From: Chloroflexia bacterium SDU3-3
GTDB taxonomy: Bacteria > Chloroflexota > Chloroflexia > Chloroflexales > Roseiflexaceae
Direction: 5' to 3'
DNA length: 64,000 nucleotides
Assembly (NCBI GenBank): GCA_009268125.1
Contig: WBOU01000016.1
Location: forward strand, 62,001 to 126,000
The position numbers and the translations under genes were made by a program. Of the stretch, positions 5,608 through 28,627 are shown piece after piece. Each line of letters starts with the position of its first letter. Position 1 is the stretch's first letter. Below the pieces are notes generated by a model. That model searched no databases, was not told the origin of the DNA, and saw only the letters and a program-made list of their open reading frames with translations.

Positions 5608-5669
5608 CTTCTTATAGTGAACCGATAGCGATGCCCGATTATGTGCGTCGTTATCGGTTAAAGAATAAT

Positions 5670-5774
5670 CGCCCTCCGTTGAACATTTTTCGCCCTCCGT
5701 CGGACATTTTTCGCCCTCCGTCGAGCATTTTCCACCCTCCGTCGAACATTTTTCACCCTCCATCGAACATTTTT
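5670..5774. repeat. Five tandem copies of a 21-bp unit
   Basis: Units at 5670-5690, 5691-5711, 5712-5732, 5733-5753 and 5754-5774 share the pattern CRCCCTCCGTCGAACATTTT with one to three differences each. Because 21 is close to two helical turns, the units present the same face of the helix. They lie between sppA and the mutase promoter. Confidence 0.95.
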
Positions 5775-5871: not shown

Positions 5872-7428
5872 ATGAGCGATGAACATACCCCCGTGAAGAC
5901 CGTCTACCGCGCCGAGGACGGCGGCACGCCGCAGCCGGACCCCGGCCAGTACCCCTTCACGCGCGGCATCTACCCCACGATGTACAAGGGCCGCCTGTGG
6001 ACCATGCGCCAGTACGCCGGGTTCGCCTCGGCCCGCGAGAGCAACCAGCGCTACCGCTACCTGCTGACCCAGGGCCAGACCGGCCTCTCGGTGGCCTTCG
6101 ACCTGCCCACCCAGCTGGGGCTTGACTCGGACGACCCGCGCGCCGAGGGCGAGATCGGCAAGGTCGGCGTGGCGATCGATAGCCTGGAGGACATGCGCAC
6201 GCTGTTTGACGGCATCCCGCTGGACAAGGTGACGACCTCAATGACCATCAACGCCCCGGCCTCGGTGCTGCTGCTGCTGTACCAGCTGGTGGCCGAGCAG
6301 CAGGGCGTGCCCTCGGAGAAGCTAGGCGGCACCATCCAGAACGACATTCTGAAAGAGTACGCCGCGCGCGGCACCTACATCTTCCCGCCCAAGCCATCCA
6401 TGCGGCTGATCACCGACACCTTCGCCTACTGCCGCGACCACATCCCCGGCTGGAACACCATCTCGATCTCGGGCTACCACATCCGCGAGGCGGGCAGCAC
6501 GGCGGCGCAGGAGATCGCCTTCACGCTGGCCGACGGCATCGCCTACGTCGAGGCCGCCATCCGCGCCGGGCTGGATGTGGACAGCTTCGCACCGCGCCTA
6601 TCGTTCTTCTTCAACGCCCACAACGGCTTCCTGCAGGAGGTGGCAAAATATCGGGCGGCGCGGCGCATGTGGGCCACGATCATGAAAGAGCGGTTTGGGG
6701 CCAAGAAGCCGCAGTCGCAGATGCTGCGCTTCCATACGCAGACGGCGGGGTCGAGCCTGACGGCCCAGCAGCCGCTGAACAACGTAGTGCGCACCACCAT
6801 CCAGGCGCTGTCGGCGGTGCTGGGCGGCACGCAGTCGCTGCACACCAACAGCTTCGACGAGGCCCTGGGCCTGCCCACCACCGAGAGCGCCACCCTGGCG
6901 CTGCGCACCCAGCAGATCATCGCCCACGAGAGCGGCGTGGCCGAGACCGCCGATCCCTTCGCCGGATCCTACGCGGTGGAGGCGCTGACCGACGAGCTAG
7001 AGCGCGAGGCCTACGCCCTGATCGGCCAGATCGACGCGATGGGCGGCGCGGTGGCGGCGGTGGAGCAGGGCTGGGTGCAGGAGCAGATCGCCGACGCGGC
7101 CTACGCCTACCAGCAGCGCGTGGAGGGCGGGCAGCAGGTGGTGGTGGGCATGAATCGCTTCGCCAGCGCCGAGCAGGCCGCCCCGCCGATCTTCACGCCC
7201 AACCAGGCAGTGGCCGAGGAGCAGGCGGCGGCGCTGGCGCGGATCCGCGCCGAGCGCGACAACGTGGCCATGGGCGCGGCGCTCGATGCGCTGCGGGCTG
7301 CGGCGCAGGGCAGTGAGAACGTGCTCTACCCCATGCGCGAGGCGCTGCGGAGCTATGCGACGGTGGGCGAGGTGTGCGGCGTGCTGCGGGCGGTGTGGGG
7401 CGAGTACCACCCCGAGGTGCGGATCTAG
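5872..7428 (+). CDS. Methylmalonyl-CoA mutase, catalytic (alpha) subunit without B12 domain
   Basis: A 518-aa TIM-barrel subunit that interconverts (R)-methylmalonyl-CoA and succinyl-CoA by a radical mechanism. Seen: [67 protein letters not shown] and [19 protein letters not shown]. The Tyr in RQYAGF and the Arg in ARGTYIFPP correspond to the residues (Tyr89, Arg207 in the Propionibacterium enzyme) that bind the substrate carboxylate; isobutyryl-CoA mutases have Phe and Gln there. So methylmalonyl-CoA is the likely substrate. The protein stops where the cobalamin domain would begin, so a separate B12-binding small subunit must be encoded elsewhere, as in archaea and many Chloroflexota. It has its own promoter region. 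Confidence 0.92.
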
Positions 7429-8027: not shown

Positions 8028-8582
8028 CTACGACTCTTTGTCCATGGGGATGCGGCCCGCGCGCATGTCCCAGTAGTGGTTGATCGCGTAGCCGATCCGC
8101 TGCTTGGCGGTGGCGGCATTCTCCCAGCCCATCGGCTCGACGCGTGCGCCCTCCAGATCCTTGTACACCGTGAAGAAGTGCTCGACCTCTTTGATAAAGT
8201 GGGCGGGCAGGTCGGTGTAGTCGTGGATGTCGGCAAAGAACGGATCGTAGTGCAGCACCGCCAGGATCTTGTCGTCGGACTCGCCACGGTCGGTCATACG
8301 GAACACGCCAATCGGGCGGGCCTCGACGATGCAGCCGGTGAAAGTGGGCAGGTTGGTCATCACCAGCACATCCAGCGGGTCGCCGTCGTCATAGTAGGTC
8401 TGCGGGATGAAGCCATAGTCGCCGGGGTAGTGAACGGGTGAGTAGAGGACGCGATCGAGCTTAAACGCGCCCGTCTTCTTGTGATACTCGTACTTATTGC
8501 GCGACCCCTTGGGGATCTCGACAATAACGTGGATCACGTCCGGGACCGCAGGCCCCGGCTCAAGCTCGTGCCACAGATTCAT
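8028..8582 (-). CDS. ppa: Inorganic pyrophosphatase (family I)
   Basis: A 184-aa soluble enzyme that hydrolyses pyrophosphate to phosphate and so drives biosynthetic reactions. Family I motifs are visible: IVEIPKGSRNKYEYHKKTG, the signature DYGFIPQTYYDDGDPLDVLV with its metal-binding aspartates, and ILAVLHYDPFF with downstream HFFTVYKDLEG. Length matches the bacterial family. It is transcribed away from the translin gene and probably together with the NUDIX gene. A TGGTATAAT promoter at 8682-8690 and a leader with two hairpins lie upstream. Confidence 0.97.
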   Translation of the reverse strand: MNLWHELEPGPAVPDVIHVIVEIPKGSRNKYEYHKKTGAFKLDRVLYSPVHYPGDYGFIPQTYYDDGDPLDVLVMTNLPTFTGCIVEARPIGVFRMTDRGESDDKILAVLHYDPFFADIHDYTDLPAHFIKEVEHFFTVYKDLEGARVEPMGWENAATAKQRIGYAINHYWDMRAGRIPMDKES

Positions 8583-8690: not shown

Positions 8691-8815
8691 TGTACGCTCT
8701 AGATGCCATGCGGCGCACCTAGCTGCCAAACAGCCCATGCCGATCGTAAGGGCATGCGCCGCCACGGCCATGCATGGCCAGCGGGCAGAAAACCGATGAT
8801 GAAGGAGGTGACACG

Positions 8816-9448
8816 ATGAATCTTGAGGATATCGTGGCCCAGGCCGCCGGGGTGATCGAGGAGACCCACGCGACGCGCGAGCGGGCGCTGGCGCTCTCGC
8901 GCGGGCTGATCCGGCAGTGCGCCAACAGCATCCGCGCCTGCCACCGGGCCGAGTTCGTGCAGGCCCAGGCGCTGCTGGCCGAGGCCGGGGCCACGGCGGC
9001 CACACTGCGCGAGGCGCTGCGCGGCCACCCTGGCCTGTTGCACGCAGGCTATACCCAGGATGCGCTGAAGGAGTACGCCGAGGCGGCGCTGGTGTACGCC
9101 TTCCTGCGCGGCGAGGATGCGCCCGGCCCTGCGTCGCTGGGCGTGGAGCCTGCGGCCTACCTGAACGGCCTGGCCGAGGCCGCATCCGAGCTGCGCCGCG
9201 CCATCCTGGATGGCCTGCGCCATGGCCAGGTGGCGCGTGGCGAAGCCCTGCTGGGCGTGATGGACGAGGTCTATAGCCTGCTGGTGACGGTCGACTTCCC
9301 CGACGCGATCACCGGCGGGCTGCGGCGCACCACCGACGCGCTGCGGGCCGTGCTTGAGCGAACACGCGGCGACATGACCTCGGCGCTGCGCCAGGAGGCC
9401 CTAGCCGCCGCGCTGCGCGACTTCGAGCGGCGGCTGCCGCCAGCCTAG
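8816..9448 (+). CDS. Translin/TRAX-family protein
   Basis: A 210-aa, almost wholly helical protein. The start is fixed by AAGGAGGTG at 8802-8810. The seven-helix translin fold is suggested by ERALALSRGLIRQCANSIRA, a central DALKEYAEAALVYAFLRGE and a C-terminal region with MDEVYSLLVTVDFPDAITGG. Eukaryotic TRAX uses two glutamates in an E-Y-V-E motif plus an aspartate for its endoribonuclease activity in the C3PO complex. Here E86 and E89 (KEYAEA) match, and D150 is a candidate third ligand. So it may be a catalytic, TRAX-like RNase or single-strand nucleic-acid binder that forms a ring-shaped oligomer. Its stop overlaps the stop of the convergent gene by four bases. Confidence 0.75.
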   Translation: MNLEDIVAQAAGVIEETHATRERALALSRGLIRQCANSIRACHRAEFVQAQALLAEAGATAATLREALRGHPGLLHAGYTQDALKEYAEAALVYAFLRGEDAPGPASLGVEPAAYLNGLAEAASELRRAILDGLRHGQVARGEALLGVMDEVYSLLVTVDFPDAITGGLRRTTDALRAVLERTRGDMTSALRQEALAAALRDFERRLPPA

Positions 9449-10254
9449 CGCTGGGTGCTCTTCTTGGCATCGTCGTAGGAGACCACGCGCGCGCCGTTGG
9501 CGTAGTGCTCGCCGGGCGCGCTGGGCTGGGCGGTCTCCTCATCGTCGAAGCTGGCCACGCCGCCGGACGAGGACTCGCCGCCGAGCGGGCGCTCGGGCGG
9601 GGCCGCATCGCCCAGGGCTAGCTCGCGGTCGGAGACCGCGCCGCCCGGGGTGCGCACGGCGGCCACCGGCGTGGCGGCGTTGGCCGGGCGGTCGATCATG
9701 GTCGCGTCGCCATAGCGGCCCGCCATAGGCACGGCGTGGCCCTGATCGTCGTAGATCGCCACATCCACCGGCCCGCTCGACAGCATGTCGGTCTCGTTCT
9801 CGCGGATGGAGCCGGCGCCGTCGTGGGCCAGCAGCTTGCGCACCTCGAAGGCGTAGGAATCCTCGGTCTTTACGGCCACCAGGGTCTTGCCGCTCTGCAC
9901 CGCCTGCTCGTAGCGGCGGGCCTCCTCCTCGGTGATGCCCGCGCTCTGCATCAGCGCGCCAGCCAGGCCGCCCACCACCGCGCCCGCCGCCGCGCCCGTG
10001 AGCGCCGCCGCCACCGCGCCGCCCGCGATAAACGGGCCGATGCCCGGCAGCACCAGCGCCACCAGGCCAACCAGGCCGCCCCAGGCCGCGCCCACCAGCG
10101 CGCCCTCGCCCACATTCAGCTGATCGCCGTGGGCCGCGTCGGGCGCGATCAGCGAGGTGTCGTGCAGCGGGATCGAGCTGGCGCGCAGCGACTCAAGGGC
10201 GTTCTTGGCGGCCTGCGGGGTGTCGAACACTCCAAGAATAGTCACGTAGTTCAT
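9445..10254 (-). CDS. General-stress-type protein with glycine-zipper membrane segment
   Basis: A 269-aa protein. Residues 1-50 (MNYVTILGVFDTPQAAKNAL, ESLRASSIPLHDTSLIAP) form the alpha/beta domain seen in the general stress protein 17M family. Residues about 55-105 are a Gly/Ala-rich hydrophobic block (GGLVGLVALVLPGIGPFIAG, then AAAGAVVGGLAGALM) that could insert as two membrane segments. After another alpha/beta stretch (YEQAVQSGKTLVAVKTED) the last 100 residues are low complexity and acidic, probably disordered. AGGAGGACAATC before the ATG at 10254 supports this start over one 20 codons upstream. Function unknown; family members are linked to stress tolerance. Confidence 0.7.
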   Translation of the reverse strand: MNYVTILGVFDTPQAAKNALESLRASSIPLHDTSLIAPDAAHGDQLNVGEGALVGAAWGGLVGLVALVLPGIGPFIAGGAVAAALTGAAAGAVVGGLAGALMQSAGITEEEARRYEQAVQSGKTLVAVKTEDSYAFEVRKLLAHDGAGSIRENETDMLSSGPVDVAIYDDQGHAVPMAGRYGDATMIDRPANAATPVAAVRTPGGAVSDRELALGDAAPPERPLGGESSSGGVASFDDEETAQPSAPGEHYANGARVVSYDDAKKSTQR

Positions 10255-10376
10255 GATTGTCCTCCTACCGATAGGCGGCACCGCAGCCGCCTGCTCTGCC
10301 GCTCTGCTATGCAAGCCGCGTGCCAGCCGCTACAGGATCGTATCAGGCCGCTCTCATAATCGCACGCACTTGCATT

Positions 10377-19877: not shown

Positions 19878-22800
19878 CTAGCGGAAAACCATAGGTAGGA
19901 AGACCGAAGAGCGCGTCGCGGAAACTCCAGGGACAAAGCTCACTGGGCCATACTCGAACACTCTGCCATCCGTATCCACCTCCTGCAGCCAGTAGTAGTA
20001 GCGCACCCCGCTGTCGGCAGCCGCGTCGTGCCAGGTGTAGCTGCCGCCCTGCAGCCCCAGCCCTGGGATCAGCACCGCTGTGACCTGAGCCGCATGGGCA
20101 CGGGTTGAATCTGTGCTCCGCAGCAGGTGAAAGCCCACCACATCCCGCTCATAGACCGTCGTCCAGGAGATCTGCACGCCCGCCGCAGTCAGGCTCGCCC
20201 CAAACGAGATGAGGTTCACAACGGTAGGGGCAACGCTCACCGGGGCTGCCGACTGATCATTCTCTGCGCCGTTATTATTCCCAGGTGTAGAGTTCGGGTC
20301 AAATTGGTCGGCGGCACGAACGCGCGCCACATTGACGATCACCCCGGAGCCGGTGATGCTCGCCGTGATCCGCAGCTCGGCCTGCGCGCCGTTGCCAACC
20401 GTCCCCACATCCCACACGCCGGTGGCGCTGTCATAGCTGCCCTGCGATGCGGTGGCCGACACAAAATCAAGCCCAGCTGGCAGCATGTCCAAGACCGAGA
20501 CATTGGTAGCCGTGCTCGGCCCATGGTTGGCCAGCGTGATCACGTAGAGCACCTGGTTGCCTGCGGCTGGGGTTGGGGCATTCACGGTCTTCACCAGCTG
20601 CAGATCGGCAGCCTGAACACCCACGGTCGCACTGCTTGTGTTATTGCTCGGATCGGGATCAGGCGTATTGGCCCCCGATATGCTGGCCGTATTGGTGATC
20701 GTGCCGATCTGAGCGACAGTGGCCGTCACCTGGAGTGTCGCGCCTGCCCCATTGCCCAACGATCCGACCGTCCACAGACCCGAGCCGCTGGCGTAGGCGC
20801 CCTGGCTCGCAGTTGCCGATACAAAGGACAGGCCGCTCGGCAGGGATTCGAGCACCTCCACGCCAGATGCCGTGCTTGGGCCATTATTGCTGACCTGAAT
20901 GGTGAAGACCACCTGGTCGCCCACATTCGGAGCCGCAACATCCACGGTCTTCGACAGCACCACATCGGCCTGCTGCCCAGTGATCGTCGCACTGCTACTG
21001 TTGTTCGCCGAGTTAGGATCGGGCTGATCTGTAGCGCTGACAGCGGCGCTATTGGTGATGCTGCCGGCCTGTGCAACGGTTGCAACCAGCGTCAGCGTCG
21101 CGCTCGCCGCATTGGCGATCGACCCCACCGACCAGATACCACTTCCAGCAGCGTACGAACCCTGGCTGGCGCTCGCTGACACAAACGTCAGTCCAGCAGG
21201 CAGCCCATCGGTAACAGCCACATTGGTGGCAGTGCTCGGGCCGCTATTGGTCACCTGGATGGTGAAAACGACATTGCTACCCACATTCGGCGTCGCCACA
21301 TCAACCGTCTTCACCACCACAATATCGGCCTGCTGCCCGCCCACTGCCGCGCTCGCCGTGTTATTGGCGCCGTTCGGGTCAGGCGGTATGGATGTCTGGA
21401 TCGCAGCATTATTGGTGATCGTACCCAGCTGCGTGACCGTAGCTACCACAAACAGCGTCGCACTGGAGCCGCTTGGCAATGCGCCAATCGACCATAGACC
21501 AGTCCCACTGTCATAGCTCCCCTGGCTCGCCGCCGCCGAGACAAAGCTCAGGCCTGCGGGCAGCAGATCCGACACCACAACACCCGACGCGGCACTTGGG
21601 CCATAGTTCACCACTTGGATGGTAAAGGTGACGTTGTCGCCCGTATTGGGCACCGCAATATCAACCGCCTTGGTGATCCCCAGATCGGCCACCTGCCCAG
21701 TGACCGACGCGCTGCTCGCGTTGTTCGAGGCATCGGGATCGGGCTGATCAGAATAGCTCACTGTGGTGTTATTCGTTATCGTGCCGGCCTGCGTCACCGT
21801 CACAACCAGCTGAAGCGTCGCATTGCCGCCGCTGAGCACGTTCCCCACCGACCATAGCCCCGTCCCGCTAGAATAGCTCCCCTGGCTCGCCATAGCAGAA
21901 ACAAAGCTCAACCCTGCGGGCAGGGCATCCAGCACCTCCACGCCTGTTGCCGTGCTCGGGCCAAGATTGGTCAGCACCAGCACAAAGGTGACATTGCTGC
22001 CCACGCTGGGCTGCGCGGTGTTGACGCTCTTGCTCAGCGCCAGATCGGCCTGCTGGCCAGTGATGCCGATGCTCGCCGTGTTGTTGGCAAGCACTGGGTC
22101 GGGCTGGTCGGCCGTGGCCACCGAGGCAGTCACGGTGATCAGGCCAGCCTGCTCAACCGTAGCCACCAGCGTCAGCGTGACGCTGGCCCCGACCGCAAGG
22201 CTCCCCACCGTCCAGATGCCGCTGCTGCTGTCGTAGCTGCCAGCAGCAGTGCTCCCCGATACCAGGGTCAGGCCTGCGGGGAGAAGGGCCAGCAGGCTCA
22301 CCCCCGAAGCATCGCTCGGCCCATTGTTCGTGAGTGTGATGGTATAGGTTGCCTGCCCGCCCACATTGGGGGTTGCGGTATCGACCGCTATCTGCACTGC
22401 CAGATCGGCCTGCTGCACAACCACCGTCGCGCTAGCGCTATTGTCGCCAAGCGTGGGGTCGATCTGAGCCAGCTTCGAGACGCCCGCTGTATTCGTTATC
22501 GACCCAGCGAGGTCGGCGCGCGCGGTGACGATAAGGCTGGCGCTCGCGCCATTGGCAAGGCTACCCACAACCCACAGGCCACTCCCGGCGGTGTAGCTGC
22601 CCGATGCGGTGCTGGCCGAGACAAAAGTCATACCCGCCGGAAGTAGATCGCTCACCTCTATGCCGGATGCGGCATTTGGCCCATTGTTTGTAACCTGGAT
22701 GGTGAAATCGAGCATGTCGCCGACATTCGGCGTTAGGTCGCTTGCAACCTTGGTCACCGCGAGATCGGCCAGTGACTGAGGCGTCGAGACGCTGCTGGTA

Positions 22801-25800
22801 TTATTCGCGCTATTGGGATCGGGCTGATCAACTGCGCTCACGCTTGCGGTGTTAAGAATCGCCGTCGTCGCATTTACCGTCACCGTAAGCTCCAGCGTAG
22901 CCGTCGCCCCATTTGCCAGCGAGCCAACATCCCAAACCCCAGTGCCGGTGCTATAAGTACCCTGGCTAGCGTTGGTGCCCGCCCAGGTGACACTCCCTGG
23001 AAGCGTGTCCAGGATCTGCACCCCAGTGGCATTGCTCGGCCCATTATTCCTCACCAGGATGGTGTATTTGATCGTGTTACCCGCAACTGGGTTTACTGTA
23101 TCCACGGTCTTGCTCACCGCCAGATCGACCTGCTGGCCGATGAGGCTAGCGCTCGCCGTGTTGTTTGCGCCGTTGGGGTCGGGCTGATCGGCGCTAGTGA
23201 TGGCGACCTGGTTGACGATCAGGCCGGGCTGGTCAACCGTGGCAACAATGGTCAGTGTGCTGCTCGCCCCATTCGCCAGATCCCCCACGCTCCATATGCC
23301 GGTCCCGGCGGTGTAGGTGCCCTGGCCTGCCGTTGCACTCACCAAGCGTAGCCCGGCAGGCAGCAGATCGCGAAGCTGCACATGGGTGGCCTGGCTTGGG
23401 CCATTATTCACCACCTGGATGGTGTAGATCACGTTGCTGCCCACATTCGGCGTAGCGTTGTCCACGGTCTTGCTCACCGCCAGATCAGCCTGCTGCCCAG
23501 TGACGCTGGCGCTGGCGGTGTTGTTGGCCGCATTGGGGTCGGGCTGATCGCTAGCCAAGATGCTGGCGCTATTGGTCAGCGCCCCAGGCTGAGCGACGCT
23601 GGCCACAATGGTGAGCACCACGCTACTGCCGCTCGCAAGGCTACCGACGGTCCATGCCCCAGTTGTGCTGTTGTAGGTACCCTGGCCCGCCACGCTCGAA
23701 ACGTAGGTTAGGCCAACTGGCAGGCTATCCTGCACCACCACACCGCTGGCAGCACTTGGCCCATTGTTGGTGAGCTGGATGCTGAAATGAACGAGCGACC
23801 CGACATCCTGCTCGCTCACATCGGCAAGTTTGACTAGGGCAAGATCGGCCTGCTGCCCAGTGATGCTGACACTCGCGGTATTATTCGTGGCGTTGGCATC
23901 AGGCTGATCGGCAGAGATAACCGAGATGCTGTTGACCATCGTGCCGACCTGCGTCACCGTCGCCACGATCTGAAGCGAGGCGGTCGCGCCATTCGCCAAA
24001 CTCGGGATCGACCACACCCCCGTGGCACTGTTGTAGCCAGCGCCTGCCGAAACAAAGGTCAGGCCCGCTGGAAGCACATCCTGAATGGTGATATTTGTCG
24101 CAGCGCTCGGGCCATAGTTTGTGGCCTGAAGGGTAAACGTGACATTCGAGCCAACATTTGGCGCGGCCGTATCCACCGTCTTGGCAAGGCCAAGATCGGC
24201 CTGCTGCCCAGTGACCGTCGCCGAATCGGTATTATCAGTCGAATCGGGGTCGGGCTGATTGGCGGCGGTGATCGTGGCGCTATTGATGATGGTGACTGGC
24301 TGCACCACCGTGGCCACCACCGTGAGCGTGGCGCTCGCACCATTCGCTAGGCTGCCCACGCTCCACAGGCCAGTGCCAGCGGTATAGCTGCCCTGGCTCG
24401 GTGCCGCAGACACGAAGGTAAGCCCCGCAGGCAGCAGATCAGTCACCGCCACGCCGGTGGCGGTGCTAGGCCCGTTGTTGCTCACCTGCACCGTGAAGGT
24501 CACATTGCTTCCGACGTTAGGAGACGCGCTGCTCACCACTTTTGTGACGGCGAGATTGGCCTGCTGGCCATTCAGGCCAGCGCTGGCGGTGTTATTGGCG
24601 CTCACTGGGTCGGGCTGGTCGGCGGCGCTGACCGACGCCGTATTGACCAGCACGCCCGCCTGGGTGACGGTGGCCACGATGGCAAGCGAGGCGCTCGCGC
24701 CATTTGCCAGGCCCCCCACAGTCCACACGCCCGTTCCAGCGGCATAGCTGCCCTGGCTCGGCGTCGCGGAGACAAAGGTAAGCCCCGCAGGCAGCAGATC
24801 GGTCACGGCCACACCCGTGGCATTGCTGGGGCCGTTGTTGCTTACCTGCACCGTGAAGGTCACGCTATCCCCTGCGTTCGGGGTGGCATCGCTCACCGAC
24901 TTGGCCAGCGCCAGGTCGGCCTGCTGCCCCGCCACTGTCGCGCTGGTGGTATTGTTGCTACTCACCGGGTCGGGCTGATCGGCGGCACTGATCGATGCGT
25001 TATTGGTGATGCTGCCAGGCTGTGTGACCGTGGCCACCATGGTCAGCGCGGCGCTCGCGCCATTCGCCAACGTGCCGAGCGACCACAGGCCGGTGCCGCT
25101 GGCATAGCTGCCCTGGCTCGGCGTCGCGGAAACCAAACTCAGGCCGCTTGGCAGCAGATCGCTCACCACCACGCCAGTGGCGCTGCTGGGGCCATTATTC
25201 ACCACCTGCACCGTAAAGGTCACATTGCTGCCCACGTTGGGGGTGGGGCGGTTCGCCGATTTGGTGATAACAAGATCGGCCTGCTGCCCCGTGACCACCA
25301 CCGAGGCGGTATTGTTCCCAGCGTTCGAGTCGGGCTGGGCCACCGCCGCGATGCTGGCCACATTGGTGATCGCACCGGCCTGCGTAACAGTGGCCACCAC
25401 AGCCAGCGTGGCGCTCGCGCCGTTCGCCAAGCTGCCAATGCTCCACAGCCCGGTTGTGTTGTTATACACCCCCTGGCTCGGCGTCGATGAGACAAACGCC
25501 AACCCGCCCGGAAGCAAGTCGCCGAGCGTTATCCCGCTGGCGGCGCTCGGGCCATTATTCACCACCTGCACCGTAAACGTGACGTTCGTGCCCACGTTGG
25601 GCGTGGCGTTGCTCACCGTCTTGGCCACTGCCAAATCGACGCGCTGGCCAACCAGTGTCGCGCTGCTGGTGTTGTTGCTGCTATCGGGGTCGGGCTGGTC
25701 GGCGGCGCTCACGCTGGCGCTGTTGGTGATGCTGCCAGGCTGCGTCACCGTAGCCACGATCTGCAGCGTCGCCACGCCACTCTTGCTGAGCGCGCCGATC

Positions 25801-28475
25801 TGCCACACGCCGCTGGCCTGGGTGTAGGTGGTGCCTGCGCTTGCGGTATGCGAGCTATAGCTGAGGCCAGCGGGCAGCAGGTCGGTCACGGCCACGCCGG
25901 TGGCATTGCTGGGGCCATTATTCACCACCTGGATGGTGAAGGTCACGCTGCTGCCCACGTTGGGCGTGGCGTTGCTCACGGTCTTGGCCACTGCCAGATC
26001 AGCCTGCTGGCCGGTCACGGTGGCGCTGGCCTGATCATTCGCCGTGTTGGTATCGATCTGGTCAAGGGCCAGAACGCTGGCGGTGTTGATCAGCGCCCCA
26101 GCCTTGGTGACCGTCGCAACAAGCGTGAGCGTGGCGGTCGCCCCAGCGCCAAGGTTGCCCACATTCCAGACGCCAGTGCCGCTGGTGTAGGTTCCCGCGC
26201 CGCTGGCCGACACAAAGAGCAGGCCGCTAGGCAGCACATCGCTGATCTGCACGCCTGTGGCAGCATTTGGCCCATTGTTTGCCACCTGCACCATGAAGGT
26301 GACATTCGCACCCACGTTGGGGGTTGCGGTGTTCGCCACCTTTGTCACCGCCAGATCGGCGAGCGCCGATGGGGTAGTCACGCTGTCGGTGTTGTTGGCG
26401 GGGTTTGGGTCGGACTGGTTGACCGCGCTGACGCTCGCGGTGTTGGTGACAGGCGTCACCACATCGACCTGCATCACGATCTGGAGGGTGGCGCTGGCAC
26501 CATTGGCCAGTGTCCCGACGGTCCATGCGCCAGTAGCGCTGTTGTAGGATGTGCCCCCGCTTGGCGTAGCCGATATAAAGCTGTAGCCCATCGGCGGCGG
26601 GTCGCTGATCACCACTCCAGTCGCTGTGCTGGGGCCGTTATTTTTGACCTGGACCGTATAGGTGATCTGATCATTCAGATTCGGATTCGCATTGCTCACC
26701 GTCTTGGTCACCACCAGATCGGCCTGCTGACCGGTCACGGTGACGCTGGATGTGTTGTTTGCGCTATTGGGGTCGGGCAGGCTCGATGCGCTGATCGTCG
26801 CCGTGTTGACAAGCGTGCCAGCCTGCGCGACCGTAGCGACCACGGTCAACGTGGCCTGCTCGCCATTGGTTAGTGCCCCGACGCTCCAGATGCCGGTCCC
26901 AGCGGTGTAGGTGCCCTTGCTCGGCGTCGATGAGACATAGGTCAGGCCAGCTGGCAGCAGATCGGTGACCGCCACGCCGCTGGTATTTCCGGTGCCATTA
27001 TTGGTCACCTGGATAGTGAAGGTCACGTTCGAGCCGACATTCACCACACTGGCGCTCGCACTCTTGGCGACCGAGAGGTCGGCGCTGCCCACCGCGACCG
27101 TAGCCGAAGATGGTCCGATCGAGACCGAGCCGATGGTGGATGAGGCCGAGTTGGTGTAGGAGCCTGCGGTGTTCGGCACATTGGCCGTGTAGACCAGGGT
27201 GAGCGTGCCATTCGCCGCAATATCGTAGCTACCATTGCAGCTACCGCCGACGCAGCTGGTGGTCGGCACACCGACGAAGTTAATCGTGCCGGTAGCCCCA
27301 GCGCTGGGCGTGCTGCTCGAATTCGCCACCGTTACCTGGCTGCCCGCGCTCAGCGCGCCAAAGCTCACGCCTGCGGGCAGCACATCGGTGATGCGGTCGA
27401 TCTTGCTGGCATAGGCCGATGGGTTCGCGATCACCACCGTGTAGGTCGCCGTGCCGCCAGTGGGCAGGCTGGTGGGGGAGACGGTCTTGGTGATGGTGAA
27501 GGGGTTAGCCGGCGGGGTGTAGGATGGGCACACCGCGTTGGCCGACGAGCAAAAGCCGAAGTTGCCGGTATACTTGAGCTGACCGCCGCTGGTCAGATCG
27601 GAATACGGGTTGGCGATGGTGCTCGCGCCCTGGCAGAGCATCTTGAAATAGTAGACCACCGTGGCCGTGTTGCTGGACGCACCACTCACGCCAGTAAAGT
27701 AGAGCCGATCATCGGCAGCGGTGGTCAACCCGGCGGTGAAGCCGGTCACCGCCGTGATATCGGTGCTCATAAGCCGGAAGCAGCCGCTGTCAAAGTTGAC
27801 ATTTCCGGCGGGCTGGATCATGGCCAGCTGGGCCCCGCCCGGATTGCCAAAGTCGTAGTTTACCGTCATGGGGATGATCTGGCCGATCACCGCCCCCGGC
27901 CCGATCACCGAGTTGAGCACCTGCCCGCCAGCATTTGCCGACACCTCGGAGCGCGTGGTGAGCGTGAGCGTGCTGCTGGTAAGCGCTGCGGTCACACCAT
28001 CGTTCACGGTCACCGTGAAGGCGCTGGTGAGCGCAGGCGGGTTCGAGCCAGCCTGGCAGGGGTAGTTCACGTAGAAGTAGAGCGGGAACGACGCGCCATC
28101 GGCCAGCGTGCCGATATAGCGCGAGCTGCTCTCGCCTGAATCCAACACGACCCCAGCCGCACCAGCGAACGCGCTGAGGTTCGCGGTCAGGTTGGTGATC
28201 GCCCCGGTGCCGCCCGCCGGATTGGTGACAAGAACTTCGATGTACATGGCCTTGGGGCCAGCTGCGCACGAGTTGTTGCTATCCTGGGTGAGATAGGGGG
28301 TTACAAGCGTGAAGGTGAGATCGCCGCTGCTGAGCGCGAAGACGCTCTGCGGGATGAAGAGCGACCAGAGGAACGCAACCATAACCCAGCGCAGCCACCC
28401 TGAAAAGCGCCGCTGAGCCCGATTCCCAAAAGCTGCCGACGAGCCATGAGTGATGCGATGCCGCAACTGTCGCAT
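19878..28475 (-). CDS. Giant secreted DUF11-repeat surface protein (about 2,865 aa)
   Basis: Signal peptide (about 27-48, WVMVAFLWSLFIPQSVFALS) after a basic N-terminus, a unique domain (about 50-345), one divergent repeat, then about 19 consecutive DUF11 repeats of about 119 residues. A typical unit opens ADLAVTKTVSNATPNVGSNV, continues TFTVQVVNNGPSxATGV and DLLPAGLTFVSATPSQGSY, and closes with ADQPDPNSANNTASATVTGQ. Each is a small beta-sandwich, so the protein should form a long rod. The C-terminal part (about 2,750-2,865) looks like a fibronectin-like domain (ISWTTVYERDVVGFHLLR) and ends SVFLPMVFR. A TTG three codons earlier is possible; ATG at 28475 was chosen. Role: envelope stalk, adhesin or sheath component by analogy. 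It has no catalytic domain. Confidence 0.93.
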   Translation of the reverse strand: MRQLRHRITHGSSAAFGNRAQRRFSGWLRWVMVAFLWSLFIPQSVFALSSGDLTFTLVTPYLTQDSNNSCAAGPKAMYIEVLVTNPAGGTGAITNLTANLSAFAGAAGVVLDSGESSSRYIGTLADGASFPLYFYVNYPCQAGSNPPALTSAFTVTVNDGVTAALTSSTLTLTTRSEVSANAGGQVLNSVIGPGAVIGQIIPMTVNYDFGNPGGAQLAMIQPAGNVNFDSGCFRLMSTDITAVTGFTAGLTTAADDRLYFTGVSGASSNTATVVYYFKMLCQGASTIANPYSDLTSGGQLKYTGNFGFCSSANAVCPSYTPPANPFTITKTVSPTSLPTGGTATYTVVIANPSAYASKIDRITDVLPAGVSFGALSAGSQVTVANSSSTPSAGATGTINFVGVPTTSCVGGSCNGSYDIAANGTLTLVYTANVPNTAGSYTNSASSTIGSVSIGPSSATVAVGSADLSVAKSASASVVNVGSNVTFTIQVTNNGTGNTSGVAVTDLLPAGLTYVSSTPSKGTYTAGTGIWSVGALTNGEQATLTVVATVAQAGTLVNTATISASSLPDPNSANNTSSVTVTGQQADLVVTKTVSNANPNLNDQITYTVQVKNNGPSTATGVVISDPPPMGYSFISATPSGGTSYNSATGAWTVGTLANGASATLQIVMQVDVVTPVTNTASVSAVNQSDPNPANNTDSVTTPSALADLAVTKVANTATPNVGANVTFMVQVANNGPNAATGVQISDVLPSGLLFVSASGAGTYTSGTGVWNVGNLGAGATATLTLVATVTKAGALINTASVLALDQIDTNTANDQASATVTGQQADLAVAKTVSNATPNVGSSVTFTIQVVNNGPSNATGVAVTDLLPAGLSYSSHTASAGTTYTQASGVWQIGALSKSGVATLQIVATVTQPGSITNSASVSAADQPDPDSSNNTSSATLVGQRVDLAVAKTVSNATPNVGTNVTFTVQVVNNGPSAASGITLGDLLPGGLAFVSSTPSQGVYNNTTGLWSIGSLANGASATLAVVATVTQAGAITNVASIAAVAQPDSNAGNNTASVVVTGQQADLVITKSANRPTPNVGSNVTFTVQVVNNGPSSATGVVVSDLLPSGLSLVSATPSQGSYASGTGLWSLGTLANGASAALTMVATVTQPGSITNNASISAADQPDPVSSNNTTSATVAGQQADLALAKSVSDATPNAGDSVTFTVQVSNNGPSNATGVAVTDLLPAGLTFVSATPSQGSYAAGTGVWTVGGLANGASASLAIVATVTQAGVLVNTASVSAADQPDPVSANNTASAGLNGQQANLAVTKVVSSASPNVGSNVTFTVQVSNNGPSTATGVAVTDLLPAGLTFVSAAPSQGSYTAGTGLWSVGSLANGASATLTVVATVVQPVTIINSATITAANQPDPDSTDNTDSATVTGQQADLGLAKTVDTAAPNVGSNVTFTLQATNYGPSAATNITIQDVLPAGLTFVSAGAGYNSATGVWSIPSLANGATASLQIVATVTQVGTMVNSISVISADQPDANATNNTASVSITGQQADLALVKLADVSEQDVGSLVHFSIQLTNNGPSAASGVVVQDSLPVGLTYVSSVAGQGTYNSTTGAWTVGSLASGSSVVLTIVASVAQPGALTNSASILASDQPDPNAANNTASASVTGQQADLAVSKTVDNATPNVGSNVIYTIQVVNNGPSQATHVQLRDLLPAGLRLVSATAGQGTYTAGTGIWSVGDLANGASSTLTIVATVDQPGLIVNQVAITSADQPDPNGANNTASASLIGQQVDLAVSKTVDTVNPVAGNTIKYTILVRNNGPSNATGVQILDTLPGSVTWAGTNASQGTYSTGTGVWDVGSLANGATATLELTVTVNATTAILNTASVSAVDQPDPNSANNTSSVSTPQSLADLAVTKVASDLTPNVGDMLDFTIQVTNNGPNAASGIEVSDLLPAGMTFVSASTASGSYTAGSGLWVVGSLANGASASLIVTARADLAGSITNTAGVSKLAQIDPTLGDNSASATVVVQQADLAVQIAVDTATPNVGGQATYTITLTNNGPSDASGVSLLALLPAGLTLVSGSTAAGSYDSSSGIWTVGSLAVGASVTLTLVATVEQAGLITVTASVATADQPDPVLANNTASIGITGQQADLALSKSVNTAQPSVGSNVTFVLVLTNLGPSTATGVEVLDALPAGLSFVSAMASQGSYSSGTGLWSVGNVLSGGNATLQLVVTVTQAGTITNNTTVSYSDQPDPDASNNASSASVTGQVADLGITKAVDIAVPNTGDNVTFTIQVVNYGPSAASGVVVSDLLPAGLSFVSAAASQGSYDSGTGLWSIGALPSGSSATLFVVATVTQLGTITNNAAIQTSIPPDPNGANNTASAAVGGQQADIVVVKTVDVATPNVGSNVVFTIQVTNSGPSTATNVAVTDGLPAGLTFVSASASQGSYAAGSGIWSVGSIANAASATLTLVATVAQAGSITNSAAVSATDQPDPNSANNSSSATITGQQADVVLSKTVDVAAPNVGDQVVFTIQVSNNGPSTASGVEVLESLPSGLSFVSATASQGAYASGSGLWTVGSLGNGAGATLQVTATVAQIGTITNTASISGANTPDPDPSNNTSSATVGVQAADLQLVKTVNAPTPAAGNQVLYVITLANHGPSTATNVSVLDMLPAGLDFVSATASQGSYDSATGVWDVGTVGNGAQAELRITASITGSGVIVNVARVRAADQFDPNSTPGNNNGAENDQSAAPVSVAPTVVNLISFGASLTAAGVQISWTTVYERDVVGFHLLRSTDSTRAHAAQVTAVLIPGLGLQGGSYTWHDAAADSGVRYYYWLQEVDTDGRVFEYGPVSFVPGVSATRSSVFLPMVFR
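20240..27090 (-). repeat. About 19 tandem repeats of about 357 bp coding for DUF11 units
   Basis: Recognisable at each unit boundary by codons for GQQADLA and, mid-unit, for NNGPS and DLLPAGL. Units are diverged but some neighbours remain very similar (for example those around 24,400-25,200), as expected from unequal crossing-over. Confidence 0.9.
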
Positions 28476-28627
28476 GGTGATCAACCCCTATCTTGCGTAA
28501 TACCACAGGTAATGTAATAGCTAGATAAAGATACCGGGGGCAGCGGCATGCATCCATTACTAAGCAGCAGCGGGATGGTAACAAAATTATCTGAATCTCG
28601 GCAGGCGCTGATCAATACTACGGAGGC

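Follow-up and report, generated by a model that had tools for sequence, protein, structure and literature searches.

Research on C3PO mostly concerns RNA silencing, in which human TRAX works together with its paralogue, translin. The catalytic residues of TRAX are given as E126, E129, D193, and E197 in PMC9753400, and translin is described in PMC9246224 as retaining only Glu197 of these. Single-gene forms are known from archaea: the C3PO of Archaeoglobus fulgidus (AfTrax; structures 3zc0 and 3zc1) and that of Nanoarchaeum equitans (NEQ131; 5jr9, 5jrc, and 5jre), a homomeric TRAX solved with both ssRNA and ssDNA, which, according to PMC9051087, degrades RNA by itself through oligomerization. 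Bacterial translins were the subject of an earlier paper (Gupta 2012, cited in PMC3834833). The original prediction for this locus, which called translin-fold proteins best known from eukaryotes, underrates the prokaryotes in view of these solved archaeal homomers and of the 2012 paper on bacterial translins. The gene described here is a further bacterial member of this already known kind of protein. With a probability of roughly 0.74, we read its product as a bacterial TRAX, a C3PO-type catalytic subunit that would assemble into a homo-oligomer and use four acidic residues and a divalent metal for endonucleolytic cutting of RNA.

The window (the whole 64,000-nucleotide stretch analyzed) comes from Chloroflexia bacterium SDU3-3, and the TRAX-type gene, identified by its open reading frame, sequence and profile matches, and predicted fold, is a real gene that occupies positions 8816–9448 of the forward strand (210 codons plus a stop). 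The open reading frame had been predicted at exactly this position and length (210 aa), and both the motif K85-E86-Y87-A88-E89-A90 and the residue D150 pointed out at that stage are present in it. As read from the sequence, a Shine-Dalgarno element (AAGGAGGT; 8802–8809, forward strand) lies 6 bases ahead of the ATG at 8816; the same frame opens earlier in the open reading frame listing, at 8774, but the start at 8816 is favored because its ribosome site is better. Identity among the Chloroflexota homologues sampled (69 sequences, the window protein included) is 44–68%, and the open reading frame therefore encodes a real, constrained protein. A divergent inorganic pyrophosphatase gene (8028–8582, reverse strand) is separated by 233 bases from the start of the TRAX-type gene. 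The neighbors in the window (pyrophosphatase, NUDIX, YflT, and mutase genes) were seen at no other fetched locus (for some loci, the flanks cover only 1.5 kb) and are therefore silent on the function of the TRAX-type gene. Elsewhere in the window, a tRNA-Thr called by ARAGORN at 10012–10092 (reverse strand) lies inside a glycine-rich YflT-like open reading frame (9445–10314), overlaps a 12-base tandem repeat, and is probably a false call. A 21-base tandem repeat in five copies (5669–5774) is found just upstream of a methylmalonyl-CoA mutase gene, and a 2868-aa open reading frame with many similar repeats (19878–28484, reverse strand) resembles a surface protein.

The window protein is a member of the TRAX branch of the translin superfamily. 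By sequence, its best match in the PDB is AfTrax (phmmer, 1.3e-18), and a profile built from 43 Chloroflexota sequences matches AfTrax at 7.7e-39, NEQ131 at 1.9e-15, human TRAX at 1.9e-6, and fly Trax at 4.2e-6. A Pfam scan of the window protein returned zero families above the cut-off; the Translin family (PF01997) falls below threshold (E 0.042, 14.3 vs. 25.9 bits), so that plain Pfam annotation would miss this protein, although 39 of the 43 aligned family sequences match PF01997 at E ≤ 1, the best at 1e-6. The predicted structure (AlphaFold2 monomer, 74 sequences) is all helical, with a pLDDT of 97.4 and a pTM of 0.91, and the translin fold spans the whole chain of this model; seven of the 80 genome-scan loci had been removed from the alignment used for it by filters for >90% identity or ambiguous residues. 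Foldseek gave 49 PDB matches at E ≤ 1e-3, every one of them a translin or C3PO entry. With VIA-align, the model superimposes on the Archaeoglobus C3PO at 1.3 Å over 190 residues (Z 25.0, 30% identity), with Z scores of 22.4 for the Nanoarchaeum C3PO (18% identity), 20.8 for human TRAX, and up to 18.2 for translin chains; ranks 1–16 are all translin or C3PO, and the row that follows reaches a Z of only 9.5. The translin fold and the TRAX-like character proposed at the outset are both borne out by these searches, as is the expectation that profiles would detect the similarity, which the matches to AfTrax (7.7e-39) and human TRAX (1.9e-6), among others, put well above chance level.

The catalytic positions were compared across 199 fetched homologues (163 bacterial and 36 archaeal rows) and human TRAX, the register of the four acids between the window protein and human TRAX being set through the AfTrax and NEQ131 alignments. 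The relevant segments of human TRAX (3pja chain, aligned with NEQ131 by phmmer) are GLQEYVEA (123–130) and GVADLTGEL (190–198). All three glutamates that mark TRAX at 126, 129, and 197 are found in the window protein, as E86 (codon 9071–9073, forward strand, as are all codons given here), E89 (9080–9082), and E125 (9188–9190), and each is Glu in 199 of 199 homologues. The acid at the D193 position is E121 (9176–9178), where 162 of the 199 homologues have Glu and the other 37 Asp. The translin subfamily has lost its catalytic residues save Glu197; here, all four positions are acidic, and we therefore class the protein as TRAX-type and not translin-type. The original prediction had matched E86 and E89 to the E-Y-V-E motif of TRAX, and the alignment with E126 and E129 agrees; it had also proposed D150 (9263–9265) as a possible third metal ligand, and this part does not hold, since D150 stands opposite an Arg in human TRAX and a Glu in AfTrax and NEQ131, and it is E121 and E125 that match D193 and E197. 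On these alignments, D150 probably lies outside the TRAX-type catalytic set, but position 150 is acidic in every one of the 199 homologues (Asp in 165, Glu in 34) and may play a supporting role at the site. The residue pairs at 121/150 are E/D in 156 rows, D/E in 28, D/D in 9, and E/E in 6; the swap between them amounts to three independent pairs on the tree, too few for significance in a sign test.

Two features separate the bacterial branch from the archaeal one and count against the C3PO-type reading. The third catalytic residue is Glu rather than Asp, Asp occurring at position 121 in 33 of 36 archaeal but only 4 of 163 bacterial rows, and the residue beside E86 is K85 in all 163 bacterial rows and not one of the 36 archaeal rows, where, as in human TRAX, a Gln is found. 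On the unrooted tree of all 199 rows, a single change suffices for the archaea/bacteria label and a single one for position 85, and position 121 requires four; on an unrooted tree of 98 rows, from which 101 of the 199 sequences were left out as short or similar, the 75 bacterial rows fall on one branch (SH-aLRT 97). The two AfTrax constructs, 3zc1 and 3zc0, are distinguished by an Asp-to-Ala replacement at the position equivalent to E121, as would be expected of a catalytic mutant co-crystallized with RNA. We know of no test of an Asp to Glu swap at the third acid of TRAX, and the natural change seen here lends itself directly to probing the mechanism.

The family was found in 166 of 301 Chloroflexota genomes, in 128 of 151 genomes of the phylum containing the Chthonomonas calidirosea locus (which we take to be Armatimonadota), in 26 of 148 genomes of the phylum of a goat-rumen bacterium locus, and in 48 of 148 genomes of the phylum of the Archaeoglobi locus, so that a C3PO catalytic subunit is present in more than half of the sampled Chloroflexota and in most of one further phylum. 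This list of phyla is incomplete, because the genome scan took the 80 most AfTrax-like of 523 confirmed loci. Among 14 named control genomes there were matches in three, all of them archaea, and one region without a match (L036) was excluded from every count. A mobile or viral origin is unsupported: neither the plasmid (72,556) nor the phage (50,697) records contained a family match, the 57 pattern matches in viral contigs yielded zero confirmed relatives, and PADLOC found nothing. The window's genome has a single copy of the family. The two features of a eukaryotic C3PO, a translin-type subunit and an Argonaute/Piwi partner, were both absent from it: the family search revealed no second, translin-type subunit (PF01997, which was also used, misses the window protein too), and there was no PF02171 match. 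The presence of TRAX in a bacterium lacking Piwi raises the question of its role beyond RNAi. A possible paralogue occurs in a genome of the Chthonomonas phylum, where an additional, divergent match to TRAX (G377:C125:7330-7878; 45.5 bits) lies in a 541-aa open frame. What looks like an 862-aa TRAX fusion (L048) is without any Pfam domain, and we interpret it as read-through from upstream.

Gene context was counted in the 119 loci, 113 of them bacterial and 6 from Archaeoglobi, that had longer flanks. As a raw count, an SSB gene occurs near TRAX in 25 of these, upstream in 24, the exception (L033) having it ∼3.8 kb downstream; a DUF3467 gene is nearby in 26, and the two occur together in 19. 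Both lie upstream on the TRAX strand, with gaps that are often a few bases, and at one locus (L139, TRAX at 5977) both are directly upstream of TRAX. The SSB C-terminal tail is acidic and has [DE][IL]PF (IPF or LPF) in all 25 cases. Downstream of TRAX, 17 loci encode a split Cas4-like nuclease (N half in 16, C half in 16), which combines Cas4-like cysteines with a PD..EVK..QLxAY core; with one hydrophobic stretch in each half, it is apparently membrane-anchored, judging from the sequence. The N half carries RASE-Y-C-RAWW and the C half carries PD..EVK..QLxAY and CxxCG..C, for example at L091:6610-6861 and L094:1774-2307. At least one of the three partners is present in 38 of 119 loci, always on the TRAX strand. 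The SSB context is found in Chloroflexota loci only, and the window itself lacks it; since five changes of the SSB label suffice on the tree, the 25 cases are far from independent. The predicted DUF3467 structure has a pLDDT of only 74.7 and no significant match in the PDB, where a Sub1-like entry (4bhm) at rank 34 (E 1.1) provides no more than a hint of Sub1 likeness. In a second arrangement, TRAX is accompanied by RNase HII (24 of 119 loci), UPF0102 (20), ThiD2-ThiE (24), and a H+-pyrophosphatase (23). Of 30 loci from the archaeal phylum, 20 carry downstream of TRAX a gene that belongs to a single sequence cluster, the examined member of which is SepRS (TIGR00470, 1e-202), 14 of 30 carry upstream a gene of another such cluster (examined member UPF0147), and an ERCC4/HHH nuclease (one member examined) is nearby in 11 of 30. 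The archaeal gene pair, exemplified by L180:1-1482, agrees with the TRAX-SepRS operon of PMC5424206.

Two other readings concern whether the protein is a nuclease of this kind at all. That it is a haloacid dehalogenase-like phosphatase is extremely improbable, even though the NCBIfam model NF011160 (PRK14562.1-5), which bears the name "haloacid dehalogenase superfamily protein," matches it above the cut-off (1.8e-96; 321.7 vs. 291 bits): the Pfam scans contained no HAD family, and the structure is predicted to be a helical bundle of the translin type, so the protein passes the cut-off of a family whose name its fold and sequence contradict. Six NCBIfam models (NF011156–NF011161), all with this name, match the window protein. 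This name appears to be a long-standing misannotation inherited by the NCBIfam model, and it hides the TRAX-type family in databases. We also think it improbable that the protein is a non-catalytic, translin-like scaffold that binds, protects, or chaperones RNA or ssDNA. The shared fold, on which translin chains reach a Z of 18.2, and conserved basic residues that would suit binding (including R21, R29, H43, R127, R128, R170, and R177) are consistent with such a role, but all four catalytic positions are acidic in 199 of 199 rows, a conservation that is hard to explain without catalysis, and translin keeps Glu197 alone according to PMC9246224.

The remaining readings accept a nuclease and differ in its substrate. 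The SSB, DUF3467, and split Cas4-like genes (25, 26, and 17 of 119 loci), together with RNase HII at 24 loci and the ERCC4/HHH nuclease at 11 of 30 archaeal loci, could point to an enzyme that acts on DNA, i.e., on the ssDNA of forks or repair sites, working alongside SSB and a Cas4-like protein, and the Nanoarchaeum C3PO has been solved with ssDNA (5jre). Binding of ssDNA is different from its cleavage, however, and the SSB context is confined to Chloroflexota and absent at the window. The pairing of RNase HII with UPF0102, moreover, is widespread among bacteria for reasons of its own. The literature describes C3PO enzymes as RNases (PMC9051087, PMC9246224, and PMC9753400), and we regard cleavage of DNA as rather unlikely. 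Unlikely, too, is a nuclease of tRNA processing or tRNA quality control, which the archaeal SepRS neighbors favor (20 of 30 loci, as in the operon of PMC5424206), and with which the apparent removal of pre-tRNA fragments by the Neurospora C3PO, reported in PMC3834833, would fit: SepRS is missing among the named bacterial neighbor clusters, and this reading is weakened because tRNA genes do not cluster near the family, with only 15 in the 1.17 Mb of flanks of the 119 loci and three of these within 1 kb.

The C3PO-type reading would work as follows. The product of one gene would form a homo-oligomer, as the Archaeoglobus and Nanoarchaeum enzymes do, and the single copy and lack of Piwi in the window's genome make such an archaeal-style assembly likely by analogy. 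In it, E86 and E89 (helix 78–97) together with E121 and E125 (helix 112–134) would hold a divalent metal, the third acid being nearly always Glu in bacteria in place of the Asp of archaea and human TRAX, and RNA would be cut endonucleolytically within the assembly or at its rim. The most likely job for such an enzyme would be to trim or clear short RNA, single-stranded or nicked, with SSB-coated DNA as the site of action in some lineages, and the SSB, RNase HII, and Cas4-like neighbors favor RNA at sites of DNA replication or repair as the substrate. In fission yeast, loss of translin or Trax is reported to increase R-loops at two loci, and translin is argued there to act otherwise than as a ribonuclease (PMC9246224); by analogy, the R-loop result is compatible with a DNA-linked role for bacterial TRAX but is no proof of it. 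A more speculative proposal, to which we give a low probability, is that the Chloroflexota possess a module for genome maintenance composed of SSB, DUF3467, TRAX, and the split Cas4-like nuclease, itself apparently anchored in the membrane; within this module, C3PO would remove RNA from SSB-coated ssDNA. Its RNA targets could then be primer remnants, R-loops, or nicked RNA, and an ancestral role of C3PO at DNA would be implied, with RISC activation as a later eukaryotic use.

Among the known systems, human TRAX in C3PO (3pja and 3qb5) has E126/E129/D193/E197 where the window protein has E86/E89/E121/E125, but acts with translin, whereas the window's genome contains neither a second copy nor Piwi. 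AfTrax is, like the window protein, a single-gene TRAX of the same fold, with its E..E and E in register and an acid at the third position; AfTrax has Asp here against Glu in the window protein, it has a Gln in place of K85, and AfTrax-related archaeal genes often adjoin SepRS. The homomeric NEQ131 also has the four catalytic positions in common with the window protein, from which it differs in its overall sequence (18% identity), in the Asp at the third position, and in the Gln for K85. Relative to the known bacterial translins, the newer part is the SSB-DUF3467-TRAX-Cas4 context, for which we found no description in the open-licence literature, and the operon with SSB provides a testable lead on TRAX function.
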